DNA of 64,000 nucleotides from positions 1 through 64,000 of the forward strand of contig NZ_JACHOU010000006.1 of NCBI RefSeq assembly GCF_014206975.1. The letters run 5' to 3'. How positions within the stretch are numbered: the first letter of the stretch is position 1; each line of letters starts with the position of its first letter. Shown piece after piece: positions 31,974 through 47,927 of the stretch. The notes beneath the pieces were generated by a model, which worked only from the letters and a program-made list of their open reading frames with translations, was not told the DNA's origin and ran no database searches. The DNA is from Aminobacter aganoensis (GTDB lineage: Bacteria; Pseudomonadota; Alphaproteobacteria; Rhizobiales; Rhizobiaceae). The position numbers were made by a program, and so were the translations under genes.

Positions 31974-32603
31974 TCAGTCGGCGCCGCCACCGCCGCCACC
32001 GCCACCGCCGCCGCCGCCACCGCCGCCACCGCCACCGCCGCCACCGCCACCGCCGCCACCGCCACCGCCGCCACCGCCGCCGCCACCGCCACCGCCGCCG
32101 CCACCGCCGCCGCCACCGCCGCCGCCACCGCCGCCGCCACCGCCGCCACCGCCGCCACCGCCGCCGCCGCCACCGCCGCCGCCGTTATCGTCGCCGTCAT
32201 CGCCGTCGTCACCGTCATCGCCATCGTCGCCATCGTCGCCATCGTCACCGTCGTCGCCGTCGTCACCATCATCGCCGTCGTCGCCGTCATTTTCACTGCC
32301 GGTGCCACCCGCGCCGCCGGTCCCGCCATTGTTCTCGCTGCCGGCCAGGACGGCCGAGACCAGCGATGTCGTCAGCGGCGGGCATTGCGCCAGCTGGTCG
32401 TCCGACATGATGCTGCCGCGGTTGAGCGCGATGCAGCACATCTCATAGTTGCCTTGGGTAAGGGGTTGGCACTGCGCAGCCGACATGACCGGCCGAATAT
32501 TGCTTTGCGCCGATGCGGGGGTGGTGAAGCTGACGGCCACGAGAGCCGAGGAGGCCAGCAGAATCGAGTAGATCCCGCGAACGCAGGTTGGGTACGTCGT
32601 CAT
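31974..32603 (-). CDS. Exported protein with Asp-Asp-Gly repeats and a 67-residue poly-glycine tail
   Basis: A 209-residue protein that fits no family I know. It starts at ATG 32601-32603 with a textbook AGGAGG eight bases upstream. A signal peptide (SILLASSALVAVSFTTPASA) precedes ~75 residues with five cysteines (AAQCQP, MCCIALN and AQCPP among them), then a Gly/Thr/Glu linker. Next comes a D-D-G tandem repeat of about ten units, followed by 67 consecutive glycines (GGC/GGT codons, 31983-32183) and a final Ala-Asp. The acidic repeat could bind calcium and the poly-glycine tail may form extended or fibrous structure. RBS, signal peptide and a matching terminator argue that it is real; the opposite-strand poly-Pro/Ala frames have none of these. 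Confidence 0.8.
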   Translation of the reverse strand: MTTYPTCVRGIYSILLASSALVAVSFTTPASAQSNIRPVMSAAQCQPLTQGNYEMCCIALNRGSIMSDDQLAQCPPLTTSLVSAVLAGSENNGGTGGAGGTGSENDGDDGDDGDDGDDGDDGDDGDDGDDGDDGDDGDDNGGGGGGGGGGGGGGGGGGGGGGGGGGGGGGGGGGGGGGGGGGGGGGGGGGGGGGGGGGGGGGGGGGGAD

Positions 32604-32790
32604 TTCTTCCTCCTGAGGGAAAAAATGCGCCCGTCCCCAAACTGGCGCTATGATCAAATGTTCCGACCATCGGAAACACTTTTTTAATCATACATCCTTT
32701 TGAAAACGGTGCAAAGTCCTCCCGTCGGGGTTGATTTATCTAGCTCTAATATGCTGTTTGCTGGTCACCCATTGAGAGAGGGGACAGCAC
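32604..32790. promoter_or_regulatory. Divergent promoter gap between poly-glycine and BTLCP genes
   Basis: A 187-base gap, AT-rich near 32670-32710 (TTTTTAATCATACATCC), serving both the poly-glycine gene and the protease gene. No repeat or operator was identified. Confidence 0.4.
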
Positions 32791-33348
32791 GTGGACAAAT
32801 TCGTGGCGCTCTTTGCGATCGCCTTGATCGCTGCTGGCTGCAGCCAGTCAACCACTCCCGGACCAAGCATGACGACCGTCGGCTACGCATTCGCGCCGCC
32901 GGCGGCAAACACCTTCTGCGCCCGCCAGCCCGGGCTATGCAGCACCGCCGGCAAGACCGCGGTCATGGCTCTTACCGACGAACGCATGAACGACCTCAAG
33001 CAGGTCAACGCCTCGGTCAACCGGCGCATCACCCAGCGCAACGACGCGGTAACCGCCAGCGGCTCGGACAACTGGCGGCTGCCGACGACGGTCGGCGACT
33101 GCGAGGACATCGCCATTCTCAAGAAGAGCGAGCTGCGCAAGCGCGGCTGGCCGGCATCGACCCTGCTGCTGACCGTTGCCCATTATCGCGGCGCCGGACA
33201 CACGGTTCTGACCGTGCGCACCGACAAGGGCGACCTCATTTTGGATAATCTCACGGGCTCGGTCAGAAACTGGAAGAGCACGCCCTATCGCTATTTTGCG
33301 CGCCAGTCGCAGTTCGAAACCGGCAGGTGGTCCCGCATCGGCGCGTGA
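32791..33348 (+). CDS. BTLCP transglutaminase-like cysteine protease lipoprotein (LapG-like)
   Basis: A 185-residue protein with a lipoprotein signal (ALIAAGCSQ lipobox, Cys17) and a bacterial transglutaminase-like cysteine proteinase domain. The catalytic triad is visible as C104 (VGDCEDIA), H137 (AGHTVLTV) and D152 (LILDNLTG). The same fold includes LapG, the periplasmic protease that releases type I-secreted adhesins from the cell surface. Start is GTG 32791 with GAGAGGGG upstream. A type I secretion operon lies 2 kb downstream, making a surface-protein processing role plausible. No LapD-like receptor was seen here. Confidence 0.82.
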   Translation: MDKFVALFAIALIAAGCSQSTTPGPSMTTVGYAFAPPAANTFCARQPGLCSTAGKTAVMALTDERMNDLKQVNASVNRRITQRNDAVTASGSDNWRLPTTVGDCEDIAILKKSELRKRGWPASTLLLTVAHYRGAGHTVLTVRTDKGDLILDNLTGSVRNWKSTPYRYFARQSQFETGRWSRIGA

Positions 33349-33393
33349 TGCGCCAGCTTGCAGCGCCGCGCCAGGCAATCCATGGCGCGGCGT

Positions 33394-33876
33394 TCAATGC
33401 GGAAACGCATTGTCCTCGACGATCTTCCATATCTGCCGGTTGATGTCCCGGATCGCTTCGATCGAGGCGGAGATGCGGTGCATCTCGTTGTCGTCCAGTT
33501 CTTCGTTCTTGCCGTAGCGGACGGCATCCTTGCTGTCGAAAATGCGCATCAACTGGGTGCTGGCGCGCGTTCCGGTCTCGTCGAACGAATAGATGCAATG
33601 GCTGTATTTGTTGCGCAACTTGCCCTGGTGCGTCAGTTGCTCGGCCACGGCGAGCACCGCCTCCCGGCACGAAAGCGGCGTCTTGGACATCTTGGCCAGC
33701 CGCTCGACGAGGTCGAGCCGCGCCCGCGTCGTGTTCAGCGTCAGGAAGATGATGATCGCCGTTTCCTTGTCGACCTTGGCAAGGCCCGCGATCAGATAGA
33801 TGAGCAGGCTCTCGGTATTGGTCCAGGTATAGTTGAGCTGGCCAACGGTAAGCAGAACGTCCTGGAATCGCGGCAT
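33394..33876 (-). CDS. Hypothetical protein, helical, cytosolic
   Basis: A 160-residue protein I do not recognise. It has no signal peptide. The first half has a hydrophobic helical stretch (NTESLLIYLIAGLAKVDKETAIIIFLTLN) followed by charged helices (ARLDLVERLAKMS, RNKYSHCIYSFDETG). The overall pattern resembles small HEPN-like or AbiV-like helical proteins: the RNKYSH segment recalls the R-x4-6-H signature of HEPN RNases, but this is only a visual similarity. It begins nine bases after the LuxR-type regulator stop in the same direction, so the two are probably co-transcribed. Confidence 0.65.
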   Translation of the reverse strand: MPRFQDVLLTVGQLNYTWTNTESLLIYLIAGLAKVDKETAIIIFLTLNTTRARLDLVERLAKMSKTPLSCREAVLAVAEQLTHQGKLRNKYSHCIYSFDETGTRASTQLMRIFDSKDAVRYGKNEELDDNEMHRISASIEAIRDINRQIWKIVEDNAFPH

Positions 33877-33885
33877 TTTGCGCGC

Positions 33886-34689
33886 TCACACCCCCAGGGG
33901 CAGTTGCGCCTGGATCGCACCTGCACCGATGTCGCGTTCGCCAGCCGCCTCGCCCCTGCGCCCGTGAAAGATCGCGGCCGCTTCGGTGCGGTTGTGTGCG
34001 CCGAGCTTGGTGATGATGTTGTGCAGGTGGATCTTGACGGTGTGCTCGGATAGGCCGAGCGCCGCCGCGATGAGCTTGTTCTGCAGGCCGCGCGCGACCA
34101 TGCCCAGGATCTGCAGTTCGCGATCTGTCAGTTCGTCGAAGTCGTCGGTGTCGCTGTCGGCCTGAGCCTGGGGCTTGGCCGTCGCTTCGGTGAAGGTGGT
34201 CGCGACCGTCGTGCGCCGCTCGATGATCGGCTCGAACAGCGACAGCGGAAAGTATTCGCCGCCCCGCAGCACCAGGCGCACCACCGAAAGCCAGACGTCG
34301 AGCTTCAGGTTCATCGGCAGCACGCCGCGCACGTTGCGCGCGGTCACCACGTCGCGGATCGAAACCTCATGCCGCCCATCCTCCTGGATCAGCATGATCT
34401 GCGCTCCAGGATGCAGGTGCGAGATGCGTTCGGAATGGCCCGCCACGTCAGGCAATTGCCCGGCATCGAGCAATATCAGCGACACCGGGCACTCGAAGGC
34501 CTCGCAGGCCTCCGCCAGGGTCGCCACCTGCTCGACGGCGATCGACGGAAATTCGCGTTCAATTGCAAAGACCAGGCACTCCGACACGAAGTCCGCCGGA
34601 GCGACAATCAGCAAAGTCTTGCAGGTTTTCTGCACGGAGCCACCAGCTCCGTTAGCGCGGCGCGCGCTGGGAATTGCCACCCGATACAT
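33886..34689 (-). CDS. LuxR/NarL-type transcriptional regulator with degenerate receiver
   Basis: A 267-residue regulator. The N-terminal half (residues about 20-140) has a receiver-like fold (TLLIVAPADFVSECLVFAIE, LILLDAGQLPD) that keeps one Asp in the phosphoacceptor position but lacks the usual paired acidic residues and the conserved Lys, so it may not be phosphorylated. The C-terminal LuxR helix-turn-helix is intact (LTDRELQILGMVARGLQNK, LSEHTVKIHLHNIITKLGA). Start ATG 34687-34689 has GGGAGA six bases before. It points away from the type I secretion operon but shares the 725-base gap with it and may control it. Confidence 0.85.
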   Translation of the reverse strand: MYRVAIPSARRANGAGGSVQKTCKTLLIVAPADFVSECLVFAIEREFPSIAVEQVATLAEACEAFECPVSLILLDAGQLPDVAGHSERISHLHPGAQIMLIQEDGRHEVSIRDVVTARNVRGVLPMNLKLDVWLSVVRLVLRGGEYFPLSLFEPIIERRTTVATTFTEATAKPQAQADSDTDDFDELTDRELQILGMVARGLQNKLIAAALGLSEHTVKIHLHNIITKLGAHNRTEAAAIFHGRRGEAAGERDIGAGAIQAQLPLGV

Positions 34690-35414
34690 GAGATCTCCCG
34701 CCCAATGTTCGCAACTATGCGCGATTTTCCCCACTTGCCGCCTGATGAGGAACATTATTGGTTGATCATACACCTCCTGTTAACGGTTCGGTATAAGCAA
34801 GATGAGCTATCGGAGGCGTTTTGGTAGTCCGTCCGAATAGTCGGGCAACCGCGTGATCTAGCCTCCGGCCCAGCCGGATTTTCTCACAAAGCATTCGAAG
34901 CGGCAGATTTTTCGCAGGCACAAGCAGCCGGAACCACGGCGCTCTACCTGCGAATGACTGGCAATTGTACATATCCGGCAAGCATCTAGTAATTCGCGCC
35001 GAAATGCCGGCGGCAGTATCTAGATCAACGCCGAAAGTTCTTGGCCCGCTTAGCCGAACAGCCTAGCGCGAACTGTCAGCTACCAATTTCACGGCCCTGG
35101 TCGCACCCTTTGCCGGTTCAGCCAACACAGGCGTGGCGCTTCCGGGACTCCGATTGCATGTGACCAGGGCCTTCAGAATACGCCCGAAGATCACGAAATT
35201 GTGAGAATTCCCGGCCGCCACCCGAACCAGAAAAGGGAGGTTTCAGCCATCCAGACAGCTTCGGGGCTTCCGGCTGCTTAGTCCCCTTCAGCCTCCAGCC
35301 CCCAATTCCTGACTTTCAGTGCATTCGTAAATCAACCCGTAGTCCGCGTGACCCCAAGACCGTGTGAGAGATGAAAACGGTCCGGCAATCGCGGTCCCAA
35401 CCGAGGACAAGACG
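34690..35414. promoter_or_regulatory. 725-base gap before the type I secretion operon
   Basis: No convincing gene: the only small frame (34766-34981, minus) starts with TTG, lacks a ribosome site and has no recognisable content. The gap must contain promoters for the LuxR-type regulator (minus) and the large repeat-protein operon (plus). The first 150 bases are AT-rich. A long untranslated leader or small RNA is possible, but no clear hairpin-plus-T tract was seen. Confidence 0.45.
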
Positions 35415-37232
35415 ATGTCTGATCGTAACAGCAACAATCTCAACGCGTTCGGCCTGCAGTTCGTCGGCAACGAAATCGAACTGGGCGGCGACAGCGAGAA
35501 CGAAAACAAGAACGAAAACGAGAACGAGAATAAGAACGAGAGCGAAAACAAGAACGAGAACGAGTCCAAGAACGAAAACGAAAACAAGAACGAATCCGAG
35601 AACAAGAACGAGAACGAGTCCGAGAATAAGAACGAGAACGAATCCAAGAACGAAAACGAAAACGAGAACAAGAACGAGTCCAAGAACGAGAACACCAACG
35701 AGAACAAGACCGAGACCAAGGTCGACGTCGACGTCGACGTTGATGTCGATCTCGAAGGCCGCCTCGGCGACTACAAGGAAGACAACGACTTCGCCGACAT
35801 CGACACCGGCGGCGGCGACATCAAGGGCGATGTGCTGTTCAGCAAGGACGGCGACGTCACCTACGATCCAGGCGACGACATCAACTTCAAGGACATCCTG
35901 AACGGCTCGATGGGCGCCAACAGCAACGCCTTCCTCATCAACCAGACTGCCGACATGGTCGACAACGACAAGCTTGAAGAAGCCACCGTCAAGAACGACG
36001 GCGACTTCAAGCAGGAGTTCGACAACAAGGGCGGCAAGGCTGATGCGGGCGACGGCATCAACGCAGGCGGCGGCGGCGCAAGCGGCGGCAACGCCAAGGG
36101 CGGCGAAGCTGACGGCGGCGACGGCGGCAACGCCAAGGGCGGCGAAGCCGACGGCGGCAAGGGCGAAGGTGGCCTAGCGCTGAGCGCAGCATTGGGTGGC
36201 GACTCCAAGGGCGACACCAAGGCTGAAGGCGGCGACAGCAAGGGCGGAAACGCCGACACCGACGCTGACGGCGGCAAGGGCGACGGCGGCAGGGGTGGTG
36301 ACGGCGGCGCAGGCGTAGGCCTCGGCCTCGGCCTCGGCCTCGGTGCCGGACTTGGCCTCGGCGCCGGTGGAGCTGAATCGGGCGATGCCAAGGGCGATGG
36401 CGGCAACGCCAAGGCCGACAGCGGCGACGCCGATGCCGACAGCGGCAAGGCTGACGCCGGCAACGGCGGCGACATCGACGACACCGAAGGCGGCGACGCC
36501 AAGGGCGACGGCGGCGACGGCATCGATGCATTCGTTCCCGTGATCCCGGTGCTGAACTTCGGTGAAGGCGGCGACGCCAAGGGCGACGGCGGCAACGCCA
36601 ACTCCGACACTGGCCGCGGCGGCGACGCCGATTCCGGCAATGCGGATGCCGACAGCGGCGACGCCAAGGCCAATGCCGGCGATGCCAATGGCGATACTGG
36701 TGACGCTCTCGGCTTCGGCCTCGGCGCAGGCGTCGGCTACGGCGACGGCGACGGCTCGGGCGAAGGCAACGGCGGCGGCGCAGGCGGCGGCGGCTCGGGA
36801 ACCGGTGGTTCCGCGACGGCCGGCGCAGCGACCGGCGGTGCCAGCACGAGCGGCGGCACCTGGGCCTATGGCGACGGCGACGGCGGCAGCGCGCTGAGCG
36901 GCGCCTGGGCTGACGGCACCGGCGGCAACGCAACTGGCGGCGCAGCCTGGGCTGGCGGCGGCGGCGGCGGCGGAACTGCTGGCGATGCATGGGCAGGAGC
37001 TGGCGGCGCCGGTGGCGCAGGCGGCACCTGGGGATCGAGCAATGGCGACGACGGCTACGTCACTGGTTCCAGCGAAGCCAGCGCCGATGCCATCATCGAC
37101 ACCAGCGCCTTCAATCAGCAGATCGTGATGGGTGCCAACCTGCAAGGCAATACGGTCGACATGACCGTTGTGGGCGGCAACTTCCACGAGACGCTGACCG
37201 GCGAAGACTCCAACGACCACAGCACGCTCTAG
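35415..37232 (+). CDS. Large low-complexity acidic protein, candidate type I secretion cargo
   Basis: A 605-residue protein of extreme composition, unlike any family I know. Residues 1-25 are ordinary. Residues ~27-100 are built almost only from Asn, Glu, Lys and Ser (NENKNES units). A five-fold Val-Asp run follows. Residues ~115-215 are mixed (DINFKDILNGSMGANSNAFLINQTADM). Residues ~215-560 are Gly/Asp/Ala-rich with GGxAKGDGGNA-type repeats and a GLGLGLGLGAGLGLGAG run. The last ~50 residues (IIDTSAFNQQIVMG to NDHSTL) look folded. There is no Sec signal, and no canonical RTX nonapeptide. It is the first gene before the secretion genes, so C-terminal type I export is the natural inference. RBS GAGGA precedes ATG 35415. 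Confidence 0.8.
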   Translation: MSDRNSNNLNAFGLQFVGNEIELGGDSENENKNENENENKNESENKNENESKNENENKNESENKNENESENKNENESKNENENENKNESKNENTNENKTETKVDVDVDVDVDLEGRLGDYKEDNDFADIDTGGGDIKGDVLFSKDGDVTYDPGDDINFKDILNGSMGANSNAFLINQTADMVDNDKLEEATVKNDGDFKQEFDNKGGKADAGDGINAGGGGASGGNAKGGEADGGDGGNAKGGEADGGKGEGGLALSAALGGDSKGDTKAEGGDSKGGNADTDADGGKGDGGRGGDGGAGVGLGLGLGLGAGLGLGAGGAESGDAKGDGGNAKADSGDADADSGKADAGNGGDIDDTEGGDAKGDGGDGIDAFVPVIPVLNFGEGGDAKGDGGNANSDTGRGGDADSGNADADSGDAKANAGDANGDTGDALGFGLGAGVGYGDGDGSGEGNGGGAGGGGSGTGGSATAGAATGGASTSGGTWAYGDGDGGSALSGAWADGTGGNATGGAAWAGGGGGGGTAGDAWAGAGGAGGAGGTWGSSNGDDGYVTGSSEASADAIIDTSAFNQQIVMGANLQGNTVDMTVVGGNFHETLTGEDSNDHSTL

Positions 37233-37244
37233 CCATCGGCATGA

Positions 37245-37301
37245 GGCTCCGCGCTTGCGGAGCCAGTGAGCCGGACTGCGCGGGTAACCCCCGCGCAGTC
37301 C
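37245..37301 (+). other. Two consecutive hairpins between the repeat-protein genes
   Basis: GGCTCCGC-GCTT-GCGGAGCC (37245-37264) and a 12-base perfect stem GGACTGCGCGGG...CCCGCGCAGTCC (37273-37301) follow the first cargo gene. Neither has a downstream T run. They may stabilise the upstream mRNA or attenuate the downstream genes, giving more of the first protein than of the exporter. Confidence 0.6.
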
Positions 37302-37363
37302 ATCTTGGCCGGTGGAGCACATCTGCGCCTCACCGTGCCTGAATTTCGGGCGGAGGCACGACA

Positions 37364-39400
37364 ATGTATGCCGCGTATTTCGACAGGATCAGCGAGACGA
37401 TCGCTCACTTCATCGGCCTCTTCGACACCGCGAGCGAGGAGGCTCGCCTCAAGCAGGCCTACGACGAATTCAGGGCCAAGCAGCAGGCCGACGAGCATCT
37501 GCCGGAACACCAGACTGCCGCCCTCAAGGTCGACACCTCCCACACCCTGGAAGATTTTGACCCGAGCTTGAAGTATGTCGGCGTCAGGCCTGAGATCGAA
37601 CAGATCACGGTTTGGTCCAAGGTCGCCTTCACGCCTCCCGACGTAGCCGTCCCCGACGGACCGTTCCTCCAGAATTATGCTCATCTGCCGCAAGGCACTG
37701 TTGGTTCTGGCGGCATCGTCCTGCCGCAGATCCTGCCGCCGGGCGACCTGGCTGTCATCGTCAACCAGGAGATCCGTCTGTCCGACGACGACTATGTCGG
37801 CTTTGGCGGCAGCGGCCTGAAGTTCAATGCGCCGCCCGTCGACGATAGCCCGCTGGTCGAGATGCAGCAGGCTGCGGCCGACCTGTCACCGATCGACGAC
37901 CTGACGCTGCCGGGCTCGACCGAAGAAATGGCGACGTTCGTCACCACGGCGCAAGCCCGCTTCAACGACTTCGATGCCGACGACCACGGCAACGCCAACG
38001 TCTTCTGCGTCAAGGCCGAAACGATCGAGGGCACCTATTTCAACGGCCAGCTGATCGACGAAGCCGACGCTCCCAAGATGGAAGACTACATCAACTTCCT
38101 GAAGGAGCAGGACGACGACGCCAAGGGGCCTGACGCTCCGCTCGATGTCGACACGCCTCCGGACTCCAGCGATTTCATGGATGGTTGGGGAGACGGAACG
38201 GCCAATCCGAGCGTCGAGATCAGCACCGGCGGCAACACCGTCATCAACAACGCCGTCGTGGTCAACGACTGGGCATCGGCCGAGGTCATGGCCGTCATGG
38301 GCGACCATATCTCGCTCAACGCGATCATCCAGATCAACGGCACCTGTGACGCCGACAGCGTCGGCGCGGCGGTCGGCGGCTGGCCCTTCGATCCCGGCGG
38401 CGGCGACAACAACCTCAGCTTCAACATCGCGATGTTCAAGCACATCGACACCTCGGGCGGCGATCAAGCGCCTGCCGAGGCTCCCACCGGCTTCCCCGCC
38501 TACTACGTGGTCACCGAGATCTCGGGCGACCTCATCATGATGAACTGGATCGAGCAATATGCGTTCGTGACCGACAACGACGTGGTCATCGCCTCGTCGT
38601 CGGGTGTGCAGTCGGTCGTCTCGACCGGCGACAACACCGCCTTCAACGGGCTCAGCCTGAACGAGATCGGCAACTACTACGACCTTATCATCATCGGCGG
38701 CAACGTCTACGACGCCAGCATCATCCACCAGATCAACCTGTTGCTCGACAACGACGTCATCGGCGCGGTCTCCGGTTTTGAGACGACCGGCGAAGGCTCC
38801 GTCTCGACCGGCGACAATCTGCTCTGGAACCAGGCGAGCATCGTCAACGTCGGCAACGCGACCGCCGAAGCTCTGCCCGACGGTTACAACAAGGCAGCGG
38901 GCGACCTCGCGGCCGGCAACAAGGAACTGCCCGACTCCATCCTCCAGGACGCCGCATTCGCCGGCATCGGCGTGCTGCGCGTGCTCTACATCTCGGGCGA
39001 CATCTACAACCTCAACTACATCAAGCAGACCACGGTGGTCGGCGACAGCGACCAGGTGGCGCTTGCCATGAACAACCTGGTCGCCAACCCCGACGCCGAA
39101 TGGACGATCACGACGGGCGGCAACCAGCTGGTCAACGACGCGACCATCGTCGACGTCGACGGCACGTCCAAGATCTATGTCGGCGGCGACAGCTACTCCG
39201 ACGAGATCCTGATCCAGGCAAACCTGGTGTCGAGCGAGCCGGATCTCGGCGCGCAGAACCCGGACATACTCGTCACCGAAGCCGTCGTATTTCTCGATGA
39301 CGGTGGCGACGACACCGGCGACGCGTCGAACACCAACCCGATCGCACCGCAGCCAGCCGATTCCGGATCGGCCGACGTCATGCAGCACATGCTGGGCTGA
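37364..39400 (+). CDS. Large repeat protein, second candidate type I secretion cargo
   Basis: A 678-residue acidic protein without Sec signal or known domain. The N-terminal third contains a charged helix (residues 1-50) and a Pro/Asp-rich stretch. From residue ~285 to 640 there are about five imperfect repeats starting near 285, 345, 419, 480 and 582. Each pairs a [S/T]-G-[G/D]-N-x-x-x-N-x-A strand with a later V-x-I-x-G-[D/N]-x-Y-x-x-x-x-I-x-Q strand, suggesting a beta-helix or beta-solenoid. The last repeat resembles the C-terminus of the preceding protein (VVGGNFHETLTGED). The RBS GGAGG before ATG 37364 is excellent. The exporter gene follows after 21 bases. Confidence 0.82.
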   Translation: MYAAYFDRISETIAHFIGLFDTASEEARLKQAYDEFRAKQQADEHLPEHQTAALKVDTSHTLEDFDPSLKYVGVRPEIEQITVWSKVAFTPPDVAVPDGPFLQNYAHLPQGTVGSGGIVLPQILPPGDLAVIVNQEIRLSDDDYVGFGGSGLKFNAPPVDDSPLVEMQQAAADLSPIDDLTLPGSTEEMATFVTTAQARFNDFDADDHGNANVFCVKAETIEGTYFNGQLIDEADAPKMEDYINFLKEQDDDAKGPDAPLDVDTPPDSSDFMDGWGDGTANPSVEISTGGNTVINNAVVVNDWASAEVMAVMGDHISLNAIIQINGTCDADSVGAAVGGWPFDPGGGDNNLSFNIAMFKHIDTSGGDQAPAEAPTGFPAYYVVTEISGDLIMMNWIEQYAFVTDNDVVIASSSGVQSVVSTGDNTAFNGLSLNEIGNYYDLIIIGGNVYDASIIHQINLLLDNDVIGAVSGFETTGEGSVSTGDNLLWNQASIVNVGNATAEALPDGYNKAAGDLAAGNKELPDSILQDAAFAGIGVLRVLYISGDIYNLNYIKQTTVVGDSDQVALAMNNLVANPDAEWTITTGGNQLVNDATIVDVDGTSKIYVGGDSYSDEILIQANLVSSEPDLGAQNPDILVTEAVVFLDDGGDDTGDASNTNPIAPQPADSGSADVMQHMLG

Positions 39401-39421
39401 TCCGTTTCAGAGGGGCGCAAG

Positions 39422-41956
39422 ATGAACGACGACCGTGAAGGCTGGAGTGGTTTTCAGAATGCGCCGGATGACGGCGACAGCCAGGACAGCCAGCAGGCGC
39501 TCCCGAGGCATTCGGAGGCAAGGCCCGCACAGGCAGCGAGCAAGCCGGCATCGGACGTAGGCAAGCCTGCGCCGGAAGCCAGGCTGTCCACCGCCGTGGC
39601 GTCGCAGGAACGCGCGCTCGACCATCTCGAAAGCTACATCGACAAGGTCGTCGGGCGGCTGCATGAAGAAGCAGGCGACAAGCCGGCTGCTCCGGCAATC
39701 CCTGCCTCGGCAAGCGTCGCCGCCCCTTCGCCCGCGCCTGCAACATCTGCGCAGGCAAGGCCGGCAAGCACCCAGCAGCCATCAGGAAGGCCGCCGATGG
39801 CCGAGCCTTCGATCATACCTCCGGAGCGGAGCGCTACGGCTCAACGCCCCCCAGCGTCTGCGCCCGCCGCAGCAGCGCCGAGCATGCGGTCCCAACCAGC
39901 CCCGCAGGCAACTCCGGAGGAACCCATCGCAGCCGCAAAACGCGAGGATGCGCCCCAGGCCCGGGCCACGCCCGCCGAGGCGCCTTCGCCGACGCCTGCT
40001 GCTGCAGCTGCCTCGCCTCGTCCCGAGATGCGGGTCAGCGAACCGCAAGGGCCGGCAAAGACTGAAATGAAAGATACCTCGACGCCGGTCGGCAAGGTGA
40101 TCGACGCCGACAACGGACCGATCAAGGCAAAGGAAAAGTTGCCCGAGGCCAAGGGCCCGAATGGCGGCGACATCGACAGCGGTGGCGGCGGCGGTGGTGG
40201 CGGCGGAGGCGGGGGCGGCGTCTTCCACAAGCGTCTCGGGCCAATCGATTTCTCGGCCTCGCTCAAGACCGGACTGAAGGTCGTCAAGCGCAACCTGCTG
40301 ATTGTCATGCTGTTCACGCTGGCCAGCAACATACTTGTGCTGGCGATACCGCTCTATTTGTTCCAGATTTCCGATCGCGTGCTGACCAGCCGTTCGGTCG
40401 ACACGCTGGTCATGCTGACGATCGTGATCATCGGCGCGGTCATCCTGCAGACCATCTTCGACGCCATTCGCCGCCTCATCCTGATGCGCACAGCCGTGGA
40501 AGTCGCAGCCCAGCTGGGCGCCCCTATCCTGAGCGCGGCAGCGCGTGCGGCGCTGAACAGCAACGGCCGCGAATACCAGACGCTCGGCGATCTTCAGCAG
40601 CTCCGGTCGTTCCTCGTCTCCGGCACCCTGCTCACCCTGCTCGACGCGCCGCTGGCCCCGCTGTTCGTCCTGGCCGTGTTCCTCGTCCATCCCCATCTCG
40701 GCTTCATCGTCATCACCACGTCGCTGATCCTGCTGGTCATCACCATCATCAACCAGCGGTCGACGGCAGCCCCCTTCAGCGAAGCCAACACGCACCAGAG
40801 CAAGGCCAATCTGCACCTCGACTCGATGTCGCGGAACTCGCAGATCATCAACGCGCTGGCCATGATCCCGGAAGCCGTGCGCATCTGGGGCAAGGACACG
40901 GCAAGCTCGCTGCGTGCGCAGGTCATCGCGCAGGACCGCAACATCGCCTTTGCCGCGACGTCGAAGGCCACACGCTTGCTGACCCAGGTTGCCATGCTCG
41001 GCTGGGGCGCGCATCTGGCGCTTGACGGCCATCTCAGCGGCGGCATGGTCATCGCCGCCTCGATCATCGCCAGCCGCGCGCTCGGCCCGATCGAAGGCGC
41101 CATCGAAGGCTGGAACCAGGTCGTGCAGTCGCGGGCCGCCTATGGCCGCATCGCCAGCCTGCTGCAGTCCTCGCCGCTCAATTTCGAACGGCTCAACCTG
41201 CCGCGTCCGGAAGGCCGGCTCGATGTCGAACGGCTGCTGTTCGTGCCGCAGGGCACCAAGCGCGTCGTCCTCAACGGCATCACCTTTGCCCTGGCCCCCG
41301 GCGACTCGCTCGCGGTCATCGGCAATTCCGGCGCCGGCAAGACCACGCTCGGCAAGATGCTGGTCGGCTCGATCCTGCCGACCTCGGGCAACGTGCGCCT
41401 CGACCTGATGGACCTGCGCAACTGGGATCAGCGCCAGTTCGGCGAGAACATCGGCTACCTGCCCCAGGACGTGCAGCTCTTCCCCGCCACCATCAAGGCC
41501 AACATCGCCCGCATGCGCGACGATGCGACCGACGCCGAAATCTACCAGGCGGCACAGCTCGCCGACGTCCATGAAATGATCGCCACCTTGCCGCATGGCT
41601 ACGAGACCTTCGTCGCCGCCGATGGCGCACCGCTCTCCGGCGGCCAGAAGCAGCGCATCGCCCTCGCCCGTGCCTTTTTCGGCAATCCGCGCATGGTCGT
41701 GCTGGACGAGCCGAACTCCAACCTCGACGCCGCCGGCGACGCAGCCCTTGCCCGCGCGCTCCAGCACGCCAAGGAAAACAAGATCACCGTCATCACCATC
41801 ACGCAGCGGCCGGCACTGCTCCAGAGCGTCGACAAGATATTGCTGCTGGTCAATGGAACGGTCGCGCTGTTCGGCCAGCGGCAAGACGTGCTCCAGGCAC
41901 TTGCCCAACGTGGCCTCAGCATCGAGGGCGGCTCGTTCGGCCACCAGATTCCGTAA
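39422..41956 (+). CDS. Type I secretion ABC transporter (permease-ATPase) with long N-terminal extension
   Basis: An 844-residue inner-membrane exporter of the PrtD/HlyB type. The first ~250 residues are an unusual Ala/Pro-rich disordered extension ending in 13 glycines (residues 254-266). Six membrane spans follow (about 285-560). The ATPase has Walker A GNSGAGKTT at 634-642, signature LSGGQKQRIALARAF and Walker B MVVLDEPNSNLD. The H-loop His is replaced by Gln (VITITQRP), which may slow or alter hydrolysis. It lacks the C39-like domain of peptide exporters. It is flanked by two candidate cargo genes and the HlyD-type adaptor, so it exports one or both. Confidence 0.9.
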   Translation: MNDDREGWSGFQNAPDDGDSQDSQQALPRHSEARPAQAASKPASDVGKPAPEARLSTAVASQERALDHLESYIDKVVGRLHEEAGDKPAAPAIPASASVAAPSPAPATSAQARPASTQQPSGRPPMAEPSIIPPERSATAQRPPASAPAAAAPSMRSQPAPQATPEEPIAAAKREDAPQARATPAEAPSPTPAAAAASPRPEMRVSEPQGPAKTEMKDTSTPVGKVIDADNGPIKAKEKLPEAKGPNGGDIDSGGGGGGGGGGGGGVFHKRLGPIDFSASLKTGLKVVKRNLLIVMLFTLASNILVLAIPLYLFQISDRVLTSRSVDTLVMLTIVIIGAVILQTIFDAIRRLILMRTAVEVAAQLGAPILSAAARAALNSNGREYQTLGDLQQLRSFLVSGTLLTLLDAPLAPLFVLAVFLVHPHLGFIVITTSLILLVITIINQRSTAAPFSEANTHQSKANLHLDSMSRNSQIINALAMIPEAVRIWGKDTASSLRAQVIAQDRNIAFAATSKATRLLTQVAMLGWGAHLALDGHLSGGMVIAASIIASRALGPIEGAIEGWNQVVQSRAAYGRIASLLQSSPLNFERLNLPRPEGRLDVERLLFVPQGTKRVVLNGITFALAPGDSLAVIGNSGAGKTTLGKMLVGSILPTSGNVRLDLMDLRNWDQRQFGENIGYLPQDVQLFPATIKANIARMRDDATDAEIYQAAQLADVHEMIATLPHGYETFVAADGAPLSGGQKQRIALARAFFGNPRMVVLDEPNSNLDAAGDAALARALQHAKENKITVITITQRPALLQSVDKILLLVNGTVALFGQRQDVLQALAQRGLSIEGGSFGHQIP

Positions 41957-41968
41957 GGGGACAGCGTC

Positions 41969-43312
41969 ATGAGCGACTCGGCAATCGTCAAGGTCCACGA
42001 TCTCGAATGGTACTCCGAAGTGCCGCGCTCGATCGGCAAGCAGACCAAGGTCGGCCTGCTCCTCATTGCGCTGACCTTCGGCGGCTTCGGCACCTGGGCC
42101 TTCACCGCCCCGCTGGCGGCGGCCATCATCGCCCAGGGCTCGTTCGTGGCGGCCGGCCAGAACAAGATCGTCCAGCATCTGGAAGGCGGCATCATCAAGG
42201 AACTGCTGGTCAGCGAGGGCGACCGTGTCCGCTTCGACCAGCCACTGGTGCGTCTCGACGAAACCGCGGCCCAGGCCAACGAGCGCCAGCTGTTCCTGCG
42301 CCAGGTCCGGTTGGACGCCATCTCCGCGCGGCTGAACGCCGAGATCAACGGCGCCCCGGAAATCGCCTATCCGAAGAACGTCCTCGACAACATCAACGAT
42401 CCCGAGATCAAGCCGATCGTCGACGGCCAGCAACTGACCTTCGATGCCGCGCGCGGCAAGCTGCAGAGCGAAATCGGCCTGCTGAAGCAGAACATCGCCG
42501 CCTATCGCTATCGCTCCGATGGCTACCAGCAGCAGCACGACGCGGTGCAGCGGCAGTTGGCCCTGATGAAGGAAGAATATGCCGGCAAGAAGTCGCTGCT
42601 CGACAAGGGCCTGCTGCGCGCGACCGAAATCAAGGCGATCCAGCGCGCCATGGCCGATGCCGAAGGCCAGATCGGCCGTCTCGGCGCCGAGGTCTCCGAG
42701 ATCGGGTCGGAGATCATCAAGCTCGACCAGCAGATCACGCAGGCCCAGGAAGCCTACAAGCAAACCGCGCTCGAGCAGCTGCAGAACCTCGAGGGCGACC
42801 TCGACACCATTCGCGAACAGCTGCGCCAGGCCAAGAGCGTGCTCAACCGCGTGACCATCAACGCGCCCGTCGCAGGCACCATCGTGCGCATGTACTACCA
42901 CACCGCCGGTGGCGTCATCGAAAGCGGCAAGCCGATCGTCGAGATCCTGCCGTCCAACGTGCCGCTGGTCATCGAGACGCTGATCTCGCGCACCGACATC
43001 GACAACGTGCGTGTCGGGCAACTTGCCACGGTGCGGTTGACCGCGCTCAACCGGCGCACCACGCCGGTGCTCGACGGCGAGGTGATCTACGTCTCCGCCG
43101 ACGCCCTTCCCGACACGTCGGGTCCGGTGGCGCGCGAGGTCTATGTCGCCCGGGTCAGCCTGCCGCCGGAACAGATTTCACGTGTTCACAGCTTCTCGCC
43201 GACACCCGGCATGCCGGCGGAGGTACTGGTCCAGACCGAGGAACGGACCTTCTTCAGATACCTCACCAAGCCGATCGCCGACAGCATGTCGCGCGCATTC
43301 ATGGAGCGGTGA
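41969..43312 (+). CDS. HlyD-family periplasmic adaptor of type I secretion
   Basis: A 447-residue membrane fusion protein with one membrane span (about residues 30-55, TKVGLLLIALTFGGFGTWAFTAPL), a lipoyl-like half (GSFVAAGQNKIVQHLEGGIIKELLVSEGDRV), a long coiled-coil hairpin (about residues 85-285) and a beta-barrel domain at the end. The order matches PrtE/HlyD, which connects the ATPase to an outer-membrane TolC channel. It begins 12 bases after the exporter. No TolC-like gene is in the window, so the channel must be encoded elsewhere. Confidence 0.92.
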   Translation: MSDSAIVKVHDLEWYSEVPRSIGKQTKVGLLLIALTFGGFGTWAFTAPLAAAIIAQGSFVAAGQNKIVQHLEGGIIKELLVSEGDRVRFDQPLVRLDETAAQANERQLFLRQVRLDAISARLNAEINGAPEIAYPKNVLDNINDPEIKPIVDGQQLTFDAARGKLQSEIGLLKQNIAAYRYRSDGYQQQHDAVQRQLALMKEEYAGKKSLLDKGLLRATEIKAIQRAMADAEGQIGRLGAEVSEIGSEIIKLDQQITQAQEAYKQTALEQLQNLEGDLDTIREQLRQAKSVLNRVTINAPVAGTIVRMYYHTAGGVIESGKPIVEILPSNVPLVIETLISRTDIDNVRVGQLATVRLTALNRRTTPVLDGEVIYVSADALPDTSGPVAREVYVARVSLPPEQISRVHSFSPTPGMPAEVLVQTEERTFFRYLTKPIADSMSRAFMER

Positions 43313-43325
43313 ACCAGGAAAAGCC

Positions 43326-44969
43326 ATGACTTTGAGGGGGATGCAGATGCAGGTCGATGTCATTACCGATCTTGAGACGCTGGCAAATGTGCAGAAGGAC
43401 TGGGAGCGGCTCTACGCGGCCGATCCGGAGGCACAGTTCTTTGTCTCGTGGAACTGGCTGGTGCCGTACATGCGCTACTACAAGGGCGCCTGGTTCGTGC
43501 TCGCCGCCCGTCTCGGCAGTCCAGGCTCGCCTTATGTCGCGCTCATGCCGTTGCGCATGCGCACCCGCATGAGCGGCAAGACCGGGCTGTTCTTCAACGA
43601 GATCAGCATGGCCGGCAACAATGCCGCCGACTACACCGGTGCGATCTGCGATCCGCTGCATGCCGAAGAGGCGCTGCTGGCCTTTGGCCGGCATGTCGCC
43701 CAGATGGGCTGGGCGCGGCTCAATCTCGAGAACCTGCGCATGTCGCGCGAACGCATCTTCGCCTTCATCGGCCAGTTCTCGCGTGACATCTTTGCGATGC
43801 GCGAATTCAGCCGCGTCAATGCCGCCGACAACGTCGACAATTGCCGCTGCTTCTCGGCCGCCCTGCCCGACACGTTCGACGGCTATCTCGACAACGTGCT
43901 CAGCACCAACACCCGCCAGAAGCTGCGCCGCTTCCTCCGCAAGGTCGACGCCGGCGAATTGCGCATCACCCGGGCCGACGCCACCACCTACGAACGCGAC
44001 ATCGACAACCTGCTGGAACTGTGGCGGGTGAAATGGGGTGCGCGCAAGGGCGACCGCCTGGCCGGCATCCTGCACAACAACCGGCGCGTGCTGAGGGAAA
44101 GCTTCAAGGCCGGCACGCTGTTCCTGCCCATCCTGTGGCAAGGCGACCGGCCGCTGGGCGCGCTCGCCATCTTTGTCGACCCGGTCAAGAAGACCTTGCT
44201 GTTCTTCATGGCCGGCCGTGACGAGGCGGTGCCTTCCATCCCGACCGGGCTGATCCTGCACGGCCATTGCATCAAGCTGGCGATCGAGAACGGCCTTACG
44301 ACCTACGACTTCCTGCGCGGCGACGAGCCGTACAAGTTCGCGTTTGGCGTGACCGAGAGCAAGGTCGACTGCGCCATGGTCTACACCAAGAGCGGGCGCA
44401 ATGCCGGCGACCGGCTCGACCCCCGCTCGCTCGGCAGCATCTTCACCGAAGTGACGCGCTTCCACCAGGAAGGGCAGCTGACAAGGGCGGAAAATGGCTA
44501 CCGTCAGATCCTTGCCAGCGACCCCGCCCATTCCCGCGCGCTCTATGGCATTGGCCAGTTGCTGTCGGCCAAGGGCGACCACCGCGAGGCTTTGGCGCAT
44601 TTCCAGACGCTCGCAACCTCCGTGCCGACTTCGTCGAAGGCATGGCTCAGGCTGGGAATGGAGTTGCAGGCTTTGTCCCGGCACATCGAGGCAGTGGATG
44701 CGTTCCGCACGGTGCTGTCGCTCGCGCCTGATTTCGCAGCCGCGGAATTCGCGCTGGCCAAGAGCCTCGCCGCGCTCGAACGCAGCGAGGAAGCCATCGC
44801 AACGCTGGAAGGATTGCAGCCCAAGCTTGAGGCCGCGTCGCGCGACGACTCGCTGCTGGCCAAGACAAGGGCCATGCTCAAGCGGCTGAAGTTTGAAAAC
44901 CGGCCGAGCTACATCATGCTCAATCCGGATCGGAAGGCAGTGACGCGAGTTCTGAGTACCGCGCTTTAG
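43326..44969 (+). CDS. GNAT acyltransferase (CelD/BcsL-like) fused to TPR repeats
   Basis: A 547-residue protein. Residues ~5-375 form a CelD/FemAB-type GNAT acyltransferase, seen in DNVLSTNTRQKLRRFLRKVD, WRVKWGARKGDRLAGIL and the C-terminal LAIENGLTTYDFLRGDEPYKFAFG. Residues ~385-520 are three to four tetratricopeptide repeats (ALYGIGQLLSAKGDHREALAHFQTLA). It is the last gene of the type I secretion operon, 13 bases after the adaptor gene, which suggests that it modifies the exported proteins or a surface polymer that carries them. The start could also be ATG 43347, which has GAGGGGG seven bases upstream. Function is inferred. Confidence 0.82.
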   Translation: MTLRGMQMQVDVITDLETLANVQKDWERLYAADPEAQFFVSWNWLVPYMRYYKGAWFVLAARLGSPGSPYVALMPLRMRTRMSGKTGLFFNEISMAGNNAADYTGAICDPLHAEEALLAFGRHVAQMGWARLNLENLRMSRERIFAFIGQFSRDIFAMREFSRVNAADNVDNCRCFSAALPDTFDGYLDNVLSTNTRQKLRRFLRKVDAGELRITRADATTYERDIDNLLELWRVKWGARKGDRLAGILHNNRRVLRESFKAGTLFLPILWQGDRPLGALAIFVDPVKKTLLFFMAGRDEAVPSIPTGLILHGHCIKLAIENGLTTYDFLRGDEPYKFAFGVTESKVDCAMVYTKSGRNAGDRLDPRSLGSIFTEVTRFHQEGQLTRAENGYRQILASDPAHSRALYGIGQLLSAKGDHREALAHFQTLATSVPTSSKAWLRLGMELQALSRHIEAVDAFRTVLSLAPDFAAAEFALAKSLAALERSEEAIATLEGLQPKLEAASRDDSLLAKTRAMLKRLKFENRPSYIMLNPDRKAVTRVLSTAL

Positions 44970-45853: not shown

Positions 45854-46666
45854 TCAGGCTTTCAGCAGCCACTCATGCTCTTTGGCGTTGTGGAATTTCC
45901 ACGTCCGCTTCGGCCCCGCCATGACGTTGAGATAATAGAGATCGTAGCCGTGGCAGGCGGCGCAGGGGTGGTAGCCCTTGGGCACAAGCGTCACGTCGCC
46001 ATCCTCGACCGCCATCGCCTCGTCGATGTCGCGGTGGCCGGCATCGTTGAACTCGGTGTAGACGCGCTGGAAGGCAAAGCCCTGCGGCGGGTTGAGCCGG
46101 TGGTAGTAGGTCTCCTCCAGCAGCGATTCAGCCGGCAGATTGTCTTCGTCATGCTTGTGCGGCGGATAGCTCGACGTGTGGCCGCCCGGCGTGATGACCT
46201 CGACCACCAGCAGCGAGTCCGCCGGCTCGCCTTCCGGCAGGATGTTGGTCACGTAGCGCGTGTTGGTGCCCTTGCCGCGCACCTCCTGCTGGACGTCGTC
46301 GGGCCCGATCACCCTGGTCTCGTGCCCACCGTCGAGCCCCGGCGCCGTACAGACGGCCAGTTCGACGTTCGTCTCGGCGCGCACCGACCACTCGACGCCC
46401 GCCGGCATGTAGACCGACCACGGCTTGCCCTCGAACGGCGACATGCGTTCGCCCAGCGTGCCGAGGTCCTGGTCGTCGGCGCGCACATGCGCCTTGCCCG
46501 AAACCAGCACCAGGCAGGTCTCGCGGTCGGCGCACCAGTCGCCGAACGTGTCGCCCGGCTCCAGCCTGTGCAGGTCGAAGCCGACATAGGTCCAGCCCGC
46601 CGTCTCCGGCGTCACATGGGTGACGCGGCCCGTCCCGTGCTTCGGCTTGATCAGAAGTTTCGACAT
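45854..46666 (-). CDS. iolB: 5-deoxy-glucuronate isomerase
   Basis: A 270-residue double-cupin enzyme. Motifs include HTSSYPPHKHDED with metal-binding histidines, and EETYYHRLNPPQGFAFQRVYTE, both specific for IolB. IolB converts 5-deoxy-D-glucuronate to 2-deoxy-5-keto-D-gluconate in inositol catabolism. It begins six bases after a small membrane-protein gene and is followed by the PanB-like gene. The family match is strong and the length is as usual. Confidence 0.95.
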   Translation of the reverse strand: MSKLLIKPKHGTGRVTHVTPETAGWTYVGFDLHRLEPGDTFGDWCADRETCLVLVSGKAHVRADDQDLGTLGERMSPFEGKPWSVYMPAGVEWSVRAETNVELAVCTAPGLDGGHETRVIGPDDVQQEVRGKGTNTRYVTNILPEGEPADSLLVVEVITPGGHTSSYPPHKHDEDNLPAESLLEETYYHRLNPPQGFAFQRVYTEFNDAGHRDIDEAMAVEDGDVTLVPKGYHPCAACHGYDLYYLNVMAGPKRTWKFHNAKEHEWLLKA

Positions 46667-47009: not shown

Positions 47010-47927
47010 TCATGCGGCGGGAAAACCTTGTGTCTCCACCGTGTAGCCAGCAGCCGTCATCACCCGCATCAGCTCGGCATGGCCGACCTCAGCCATCTTC
47101 AGCGGCGGGTTCTTCCTCGGGTCCTGCTCGGCCTCGACGACGAACCAGCCTTCGTAGTCATGATCGGCAAACTTCTGCACGATCGCACCGAAGTCGAGCG
47201 AGCCGTCGCCGGGCACGGTAAACGCCCCGAGCGCCACCGCATCGAGAAACGACTGCTTCGTCCAGTCAAGCGCCGCAATGACGTCCATGCGCACGTCCTT
47301 CACATGCACATGGCTGATGCGCTTGTGGTGGTTGTCGATGGCGCGCAGTACATCGCCGCCGGCAAAGGCGAGATGGCCGGCGTCGAGCAGCAGCGGAATG
47401 CCCTCGCCCGAATGCGTCATGAAGGCGTCGAGCTCGTGCTCGAACTGCACCACCGCCGCCATGTGGTGGTGATAGGACAACGGCATGCCTTGTTCGGCAC
47501 ACCATTCGCCGAACGCGGTCAGCTTGCGCGCATAGGCCTTCATCTCGTCGTCCGACAGGACGGCCTTGCCGGCAAGCGGCTTCGAGCGATCGCCCTGGAT
47601 CGACCGGCCAACCTCGCCATAGACGATGCAAGGTGCGGCGACCGCCTTGAACAGGTCGATCATCGGCTGGATGCGGTCCTTGTTCGCCGCCATGTCCTCG
47701 TTGACCAGCGTGCCGGAGAACCAGCCGCCGCACAAAGTCACGTCCGCCTTCTTCAGGATCGGCAGCATCGCCTCCGGCGTGCTCGGGAAGCGGCGGCCCT
47801 GCTCCATGCCGGTGAACCCGGCCGAGCGCGACTGGCGCAGGCACTCCTCCAGCGACACGTCATCGCTCAGTTCGGCAAGGTCGTCGTTCCACCACGCGAT
47901 GGGGGACATGCCCAATTTGGCTTTCAC
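47010..47927 (-). CDS. iolE: Inosose dehydratase
   Basis: A 305-residue TIM-barrel enzyme of the IolE/MocC class. Features are the start MKAKLGMSPIAWWNDDLAEL, the metal-binding histidines in MPLSYHHHMAAVVQ, IPLLLDAGHLAFAGGD, HVHVKDVR and the Glu in FVVEAEQDP. It dehydrates 2-keto-myo-inositol to 3D-trihydroxycyclohexane-1,2-dione. MocC-type rhizopine enzymes are close relatives, and an additional rhizopine role cannot be excluded here. It is separated from iolD by a repeat-filled 380-base gap and lies 133 bases before the small membrane-protein gene. Confidence 0.92.
   Translation of the reverse strand: MKAKLGMSPIAWWNDDLAELSDDVSLEECLRQSRSAGFTGMEQGRRFPSTPEAMLPILKKADVTLCGGWFSGTLVNEDMAANKDRIQPMIDLFKAVAAPCIVYGEVGRSIQGDRSKPLAGKAVLSDDEMKAYARKLTAFGEWCAEQGMPLSYHHHMAAVVQFEHELDAFMTHSGEGIPLLLDAGHLAFAGGDVLRAIDNHHKRISHVHVKDVRMDVIAALDWTKQSFLDAVALGAFTVPGDGSLDFGAIVQKFADHDYEGWFVVEAEQDPRKNPPLKMAEVGHAELMRVMTAAGYTVETQGFPAA

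Follow-up and report, generated by a model that had tools for sequence, protein, structure and literature searches.

Which proteins does a type I exporter move when the genes beside it encode no recognisable RTX protein, and what might they do outside the cell? The question is raised by a locus (31974 to 44969) in a 64,000-nucleotide stretch of the Aminobacter aganoensis genome (contig NZ_JACHOU010000006.1, positions 1 to 64,000; hereafter the window), for which an earlier note had proposed that two large low-complexity or repeat proteins are non-RTX cargo of an adjacent type I exporter. We find that the two proteins, P0001 and P0002, belong to a module conserved in two orders of Alphaproteobacteria, and that comparative evidence supports well their assignment as non-RTX cargo of the exporter P0003/P0004. 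The genes named in that note were all recovered, including the operon P0001-P0002-P0003-P0004-P0005 (35415 to 44969, forward strand) and its flanking genes, and three features absent from it were added: the gene P0009, between P0007 and P0008; a long N-terminal extension of P0003; and an RNA hairpin in the operon leader (35341 to 35399). Judged by gene order and co-occurrence, the conserved core consists of P0009, P0008, P0001, P0002, P0003 and P0004.

A six-gene core conserved in two orders

The cargo genes P0001 (35415 to 37232, 605 residues) and P0002 (37364 to 39400, 678 residues) are followed on the forward strand by P0003 (39422 to 41956) and P0004 (41969 to 43312), encoding the exporter and its adaptor. 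A profile of nine P0002 homologues was run against a species-level genome collection and identified 161 encoding stretches, the best 80 of which were kept and, with the window, make up a set of 81 loci (individual loci, genomes and contigs are designated below by L, G and C numbers). In 80 of the 81, P0002 is preceded by a P0001-type open reading frame (ORF); in the sole exception, L054, the sequence begins about 300 nt upstream of P0002. Of these 80 ORFs, 71 are longer than 450 amino acids, and in several others the contig starts inside the gene. P0002 was never seen without the exporter, which lies behind it in all 80 loci with enough sequence; the adaptor is present in 76 of 76 judgeable loci, and P0009 and P0008 are found ahead of the cargo genes in 68 and 55 of 68 loci, respectively.

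The order of the core genes is kept across two orders, Rhodobacterales included. In annotated neighbourhoods the six genes stand in the same order in two Sulfitobacter records, Cereibacter, Rhodobacter and Qingshengfaniella, and also in a Shinella record; the presence of P0009 in these neighbourhoods was confirmed by alignment of its relatives. Of the further records, one starts too late to show the exporter and another carries no annotated features. On plasmids, P0002 has matches in 32 records, which come from at least two orders.

At the level of whole genomes, P0002 is carried by all ten genomes of the host's genus. Among 61 relatives P0002 was found in 13 and P0009 in 12, all 12 within those 13, the single P0002 genome lacking P0009 (G008) being 81% complete; P0009 was present in none of the 48 relatives without the system. 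Counted by genus, the two occur in the same four of 52 genera, with a chance probability of 3.7e-6 if genera are independent. Only two of 385 genomes in a class-wide sample, the host being one, carry P0002, and the module is therefore patchy.

Several individual records call for comment. The relative G001 has two copies of all nine genes, one copy's P0009 being matched only from residue 28. In G006 two loci are apparently split over four contigs (C8, C9, C15 and C19), and the breaks fall within or close to P0001, a gene whose low complexity is probably too much for short-read assembly. L099 and L120 are one record (a Rhizobium sp. RCAM05350 plasmid) in which P0002 has 502 and P0003 237 amino acids, the cargo and exporter frames being in pieces through decay or sequencing error. 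The Rhodobacter record annotates both cargo genes as one ORF (CZR27, L118 7538-12091, 1517 amino acids); a P0001-P0002 fusion was considered and rejected, since the Arg-rich stretch between them shows an apparent frameshift, located in the later part of P0001. The P0002 homologues at L112 8998-11106, L116 9998-12106 and L121 9998-12106, of Sulfitobacter, are annotated 'type I secretion protein ATPase', probably a naming error because the 43 members of the P0002 family scanned one by one against Pfam gave no family.

The cargo proteins are acidic, cysteine-poor and share a motif

Neither window protein has a Sec-like hydrophobic start. P0001 is 25% Gly and 13% Asp overall, with Asn/Glu/Lys repeats, a Gly/Asp-rich middle and no Cys; P0002 has two Cys. 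The isoelectric point (pI) of both prints as 4.05, presumably the lower limit of the program, so that the true pI would be 4.05 or less. In the two families the median printed pI is likewise 4.05, the highest values being 4.47 (P0001) and 4.08 (P0002), and the median Cys count is 1 and 0, respectively. Compared with three relatives, substitutions in both large ORFs are biased towards the third codon position.

Searches of Pfam at E 0.1 gave no match for either cargo, RTX families included; NCBIfam held no family for either, P0001 giving only low-complexity matches far below cut-off; and a PDB profile search with P0002 returned nothing below E 0.3. Tandem RTX nonapeptides (GGxGxDxUx) were limited to one loose match in P0001 and none in P0002. 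P0002 has a conserved N-terminal helix-like stretch (SETIAHFIGLF) and a C-terminal DVMQHMLG, and most C-termini of its family resemble DGLQHVLG or DPMQSVLA; tails of this kind can act as type I secretion signals, and these are candidates for that role.

The five repeats previously noticed in P0002 (R1 to R5) are borne out by profile comparison, in which eight of the ten pairs matched at E 0.001 or better; the weak pairs were R1-R2 (E 0.02) and R2-R5 (E 0.44), repeat 2 being the weakest. Seven of the eight matching pairs, chosen after the profile comparison and leaving out R4-R5, were set against 60 column shuffles each, and every pair outscored all of its shuffles. A half-repeat lying within residues 118-160 (N0) also exceeded all 60 shuffles against R2 and R3, and its profile comparison with R5 gave no convincing similarity. 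By eye, the repeat halves carry [IV]-x-Q-x5-D-x-D or a variant, and the protein can be aligned from end to end without any variable domain.

A motif of the same type stands in P0001 at the start of the low-complexity Gly-rich region. P0001 also has a conserved N-module (INQTADMVDND), which scored 29.7 against N0 (best of 60 shuffles 15.5) and 20.1 against R3 (best shuffle 17.0), and a conserved C-module (FNQQIVMGANLQGNTVDMTVVGG), which scored 19.0 against R3 (best shuffle 15.4). The middle of the protein differs between genera, being made up of Asn/Glu/Lys, Gln/Asp-rich or Asn/Gly repeats, with a family median of 29% Gly (71 members). A relative in Sinorhizobium meliloti AK57 has only 183 amino acids and keeps both modules without any low-complexity middle, so that what defines the P0001 family seems to be the modules and not the repeats.

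The exporter carries a long N-terminal extension

P0003 belongs to the PrtD-type type I secretion system (T1SS) ATPases (TIGR01842, 702.7 bits, cut-off 510.15) and P0004 to the HlyD-type adaptors (TIGR01843, 389.2 bits, cut-off 208.65). The PrtD core of P0003 starts at residue 286 and is preceded by a Pro/Ala-rich extension of about 270-285 residues. Of the 77 exporters compared, 59 have a recognisable anchor, preceded by 105-680 residues (median 232), and the remaining 18 have lengths of 716-736 amino acids. Within the last 90 residues of the extension, 54 of the 59 anchored exporters have a loose GP motif. The host genome encodes two more PrtD-type exporters, with open frames of 579 and 596 amino acids. 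The extension, disordered as judged by eye, may serve as a docking arm for substrate or partner.

A dedicated protein is encoded behind the regulator

Divergent to the operon, P0008 (33886 to 34773, reverse strand) encodes a LuxR-type regulator (GerE, PF00196) with a receiver-like N-terminal domain, which scores 53.6 bits with the CsgD equivalog model and thus falls short of the 250 needed. It is followed after 9 nt by P0009 (33394 to 33876, reverse strand), a 160-residue protein with an invariant R-N-x3-H motif; R88 and H93 are identical in 78 of 78 aligned proteins, and 26 of the 160 columns are invariant in 30 proteins. The pattern R-x4-H is the signature of HEPN proteins and is found in P0009, and no HEPN profile was among the 11 weak Pfam hits of 30 family members. 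No credible Pfam or NCBIfam family was obtained, and a PDB search gave nothing below E 0.2. P0009 may act in regulation or assist export, as suggested by its strict co-occurrence with the system and its position after the regulator gene.

An RNA hairpin covaries in the leader of P0001

The leader hairpin (35341 to 35399, forward strand) spans 59 nt and ends 15 nt before the P0001 ATG. Its 19 base pairs form stacked stems interrupted by internal loops, and its GA-rich loop is asymmetric and conserved. Rfam gave no match at E up to 1 over 34700-35500. We picked 45 leaders by position (43 of 71 plus L114 and L115, near-duplicates and four unclear starts being omitted). Single-sequence folding gave a mean z of -2.11, with 41 of the 45 below -1, and placed the GA-motif in a hairpin loop in 39; an uninterrupted stem of at least 4 bp at the motif was present in 20 of 45 leaders, compared with 102 of 900 controls whose flanks were shuffled. 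From the MAFFT alignment of the leaders, RNAalifold predicted no pairs. The structure was drawn from the single-sequence folds and then tested by pair counts and covariance-model searches.

In a seed of 13 sequences, two-sided changes occur at seven of the 19 pairs. Of five measures, four (including the covariation score) were attained in no shuffle out of 500, whereas 119 shuffles attained the fifth, further pair types. A covariance model of this seed (model R1, not to be confused with repeat R1) was searched against 55 other sources; at E up to 1 it placed the hairpin where expected in 25 of them, with 12 matches at E up to 0.01, and gave no match in the remaining 30 (L099 and L120, the same record, are counted separately here); two further matches in L051 and L055 raise the total to 27. 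The 27-match alignment, which was fitted to the model and leans towards it, has two-sided changes at 16 of 19 pairs (69 cells against 29.7 shuffled, with a maximum of 10 when slid), G-U pairs at 14 of 19, and all five measures reached by none of 500 shuffles, which ignore relatedness. A model built from 42 matches (model R3) recovered the hairpin in 25 of 40 sources outside its training set, which contained near relatives of those 40; 20 matches had E up to 0.01, and S. meliloti AK57 was included. The held-out matches, aligned with the same leaning, show two-sided changes at 14 of 19 pairs (46 cells against 19.1 shuffled, maximum 12 slid), with four measures reached by 0 and one by two of 500 shuffles.

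A sequence-only model (model R2) found the hairpin in 29 of the 55 sources compared with 25 for model R1. The structured model scored about 8-17 bits higher in ten of its eleven best matches (the gain in L057 was 0.6); it brought no gain in weaker ones such as L050, L056 and L063, and the sequence-only model gave lower E-values in many cases. Since the models differ in weighting, this mixed comparison is only suggestive and is not counted as proof.

Over the 61 relatives model R1 gave 12 matches in the ten genomes of the genus, as many as P0002 itself has there, and no match at E 0.01 beyond the genus, the search filters losing weak matches; the P0002-bearing genomes G031, G034 and G041 were without an R1 match. 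Model R3, run over 41 genomes, added one weak match (E 0.03) in G022, which lacks P0002. In G006 the hairpin matches lie on contigs other than those of P0002. Within the loci, model R3 gave no hairpin in L066, L071, L072, L075, L078, L107, L028 and L029. On the evidence of these searches the RNA element is found almost only in front of the genes of the module. The hairpin leaves the Shine-Dalgarno sequence uncovered, which makes simple occlusion unlikely; action through protein binding or RNA processing seems more likely.

A weak second copy of the hairpin adjoins the 3' end of the P0009 gene in Sinorhizobium/Ensifer loci (L048 5960-6013, L051 5853-5905 and L055 5822-5874, forward strand; E 0.018, 0.074 and 0.78), and in the Mesorhizobium leader L043 the hairpin is tandemly duplicated (3034-3092 and 3109-3167). 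The possibility that the 3' half is coding was considered; in L056 the frame has a stop.

Farther upstream lies a conserved 25-bp element (35063 to 35087, forward strand; 352 nt upstream of the P0001 start), a candidate promoter or operator. At least 17 of 23 positions were matched in 41 of 71 loci, which include the Aminobacter and Mesorhizobium loci from which the pattern was drawn, against one on the reverse strand and none in shuffled sequence (one shuffle per locus); in relatives the element is mostly 270-350 nt upstream of P0001.

Accessory genes lie outside the conserved system

The acyltransferase and protease that had been proposed to modify and trim the cargo are, from their distribution, not part of the conserved system. 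P0005 (43326 to 44969, forward strand), a lineage-specific GNAT (PF13480)-TPR fusion, occurs in only 22 of 71 loci, shorter GNAT-only matches in some Ensifer/Sinorhizobium loci being excluded, and the HlyC family was absent from the 18 Pfam families (PF13480 and TPR-like) that it matched at E up to 0.1. P0007 (32791 to 33348, forward strand) does belong to the BTLCP family (Peptidase_C93, 164.4 bits) and has a strongly hydrophobic N terminus, which looks like the lipobox-bearing signal of a lipoprotein; the label LapG-type does not hold, with 35.6 bits against the 320 needed by the LapG equivalog model. Only 21 of 63 loci have it, and the genome encodes eight C93 proteins, P0007 included. A search for LapD (PF16448) had no match in this genome, nor did it give any in control genomes. 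The poly-Gly protein P0006 (31974 to 32603, reverse strand), putatively exported by its hydrophobic, signal-like N terminus, is as lineage-bound as the other two (20 of 63 loci, a count possibly low for a low-complexity protein).

Elsewhere in the genome, contig C3:119521-126643 encodes on one strand a type I-like exporter that scores below the PrtD cut-off, together with an OEP channel and two Peptidase_C93 proteins, a set that is Lap-type by make-up. To the right of the operon, two reverse-strand genes (45854-46666 and 47010-47927) resemble, by eye, the IolB- and IolE-like genes of inositol catabolism.

Discussion

Conserved synteny in two orders, the exporter at 80 of 80 loci, the missing Sec-like start, and the acidic, Cys-poor composition together make a well-supported case that P0001 and P0002 are non-RTX cargo, and this conservation is most simply read as export through P0003/P0004. 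We think it probable, with some reservation, that the genes form a self-contained type I module delivering a two-protein surface coat or matrix material. P0003 and P0004, with a TolC-type channel encoded elsewhere, would export both proteins straight from the cytosol. P0002 would then probably fold outside into a beta-rich repeat protein, and its I-x-Q-x5-D-x-D motifs may bind Ca2+. P0001, which shares this motif and whose conserved C-module weakly resembles a P0002 repeat, could co-assemble with it into the coat or matrix as a variable, flexible filler. That the cargo forms or coats an outer layer, as first proposed, is plausible given the combination of a repeat protein with a low-complexity partner and, as a precedent, BapA (see below). 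The LuxR-type P0008 and the dedicated P0009 would constitute a divergent operon controlling production, to which, in Hyphomicrobiales, the hairpin just before the ribosome-binding site may add control at the mRNA level.

A number of observations weigh against this picture. The similarity between P0001 and P0002 is short (13-18 columns), and the P0001 modules did not match R1, R2, R4 or R5 (E 0.008 or worse). No outer-membrane channel gene is present in the locus; three OEP proteins over cut-off are encoded elsewhere in the host genome. S. meliloti AK57 departs from the usual order in having its P0009 relative behind the adaptor. Because only the best 80 of 161 stretches were kept, close relatives weigh more heavily in the counts. 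Model R3 gave no hairpin in any of seven Rhodobacterales loci, which do have P0009, and P0009 therefore cannot act only through the hairpin. A link to exopolysaccharide, suggested by Sulfitobacter annotation and, by eye, by Neorhizobium/Pseudorhizobium neighbourhoods, was unsupported by counts: among the 25 commonest families, a small sample of 98 proteins flanking 19 loci (98 of 111 selected, omitting six window proteins, one regulator and six ORFs of L116-L118) held two GT2, two GT1, two Polysacc_synt and two epimerase proteins, and 88 control proteins from 13 stretches held three epimerase, two Polysacc_synt and two Polysacc_synt_2. This lack of polysaccharide-gene enrichment weakens any link to one matrix polymer.

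Other functions for the cargo have to be weighed against a coat. Both proteins could be released, acting as diffusible effectors or scavengers that bind metal or polysaccharide, in the way of the glycanases and Rap proteins that Rhizobium PrsDE exports. One such substrate, RapD, ends up wholly in the medium according to the accessible part of its report (PMC9298526), Pfam shows no known adhesin domain in P0002, and acidic D-x-D motifs fit ion binding; yet the Gly-rich, low-complexity partner of variable length looks structural, and the exporter is dedicated to one cargo pair, unlike the multi-substrate PrsDE, so we regard release as unlikely. An antibacterial role for P0002 or P0001, contact-dependent or bacteriocin-like, with the HEPN-like P0009 as immunity protein or toxin partner, would draw on the tie of P0009 to the system, on its R-N-x3-H motif and on the RTX bacteriocins of rhizobia, as noted in the accessible text of PMC3034196. 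We consider this very unlikely: P0009 is well conserved and sits behind the regulator, not behind the cargo, and P0002 shows, by eye, no variable domain. Immunity proteins tend to diversify.

The earlier suggestion that the cargo is held in the outer membrane and cut free by P0007, in the manner of a LapG-controlled adhesin, was natural given a nearby Peptidase_C93 protein with a hydrophobic N terminus, presumably a lipoprotein signal, but appears highly improbable in view of its occurrence in a third of the loci, its LapG score, the seven further C93 proteins and the separate exporter/OEP/C93 set on contig C3. As to the hairpin, an inverted repeat in DNA bound by P0008 would look much the same, P0008 is a DNA-binding regulator of the same locus, and RNAalifold on the MAFFT alignment found no pairs; a DNA operator is nevertheless distinctly unlikely, because 19 pairs with internal loops, a conserved asymmetric loop and frequent G-U pairs are better suited to RNA, and because the hairpin also occurs in loci without a P0008 match (L059, L101, L109, L085, L087 and the seed members L052 and L081).

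Comparison with known systems sets the module apart in several respects. It shares the ATPase subfamily and adaptor, over curated cut-offs, with PrtD/HlyD systems such as PrsDE of Rhizobium, PrtDEF and RsaDE, and just as no channel gene lies in this locus, that of PrsDE is unlinked. It differs from them in the long Pro/Ala-rich extension, with its short helix-like stretch and loosely defined GP motif, and in having one non-RTX cargo pair, the dedicated P0009 and an RNA leader. The LapG/LapD/LapA system also pairs a BTLCP-family protease with a type I exporter; here, however, P0007 is optional and below the LapG cut-off, and the cargo has no known adhesin domain. RTX proteins, as described in the accessible text of PMC3034196, are similarly acidic and Gly/Asp-rich with an adjoining type I exporter gene, whereas the cargo here is without tandem GGxGxD nonapeptides. 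A further likeness is to BapA of Paracoccus denitrificans, an acidic, low-complexity Asp-Ala repeat protein encoded beside its type I secretion genes (BapBCD) and needed for biofilm; BapA differs in consisting mostly of 891 Asp-Ala dipeptides and in a locus (Pden_2411-2413) that includes an outer-membrane gene, and no P0002-like partner is apparent in the accessible part of that report (PMC5588039), the likeness being one of description. The Rap/Ply/RapD proteins of R. leguminosarum PrsDE are, in the accessible text of PMC9298526, non-RTX type I cargo acting in the biofilm matrix, RapA2 and RapD being Ca2+-dependent beta proteins; they differ in their cadherin-like domains, scattered genes and shared exporter, P0002 having no Pfam domain.

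The module is real and conserved and, as far as our searches of genomes and literature reach, undescribed. No description of the gene set was found at the level of titles and abstract openings; subscription papers are mostly beyond that coverage, and the set may have been published. The cargo families and P0009 have no Pfam or NCBIfam entry and the RNA leader no Rfam entry (PHROGs and PADLOC being outside the scope). Its most unusual parts are the new RNA element and the dedicated partner protein P0009. We put forward tentatively, and think rather doubtful, the larger proposal of an undescribed T1SS class, in which a two-component matrix of a repeat protein and a prion-like or silk-like partner sharing its motif would be exported through an ATPase with a disordered N-terminal arm, and a cis-acting hairpin in Hyphomicrobiales would be read by the HEPN-like P0009.

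The module is spread over soil and marine alphaproteobacteria, and the public annotation of its Sulfitobacter P0002 homologues is misleading. The module is a clean case in which to ask how low-complexity non-RTX proteins pass through type I exporters, and it bears on the role of an N-terminal extension on a PrtD ATPase and on whether an RNA leader and a dedicated partner protein can control type I cargo.

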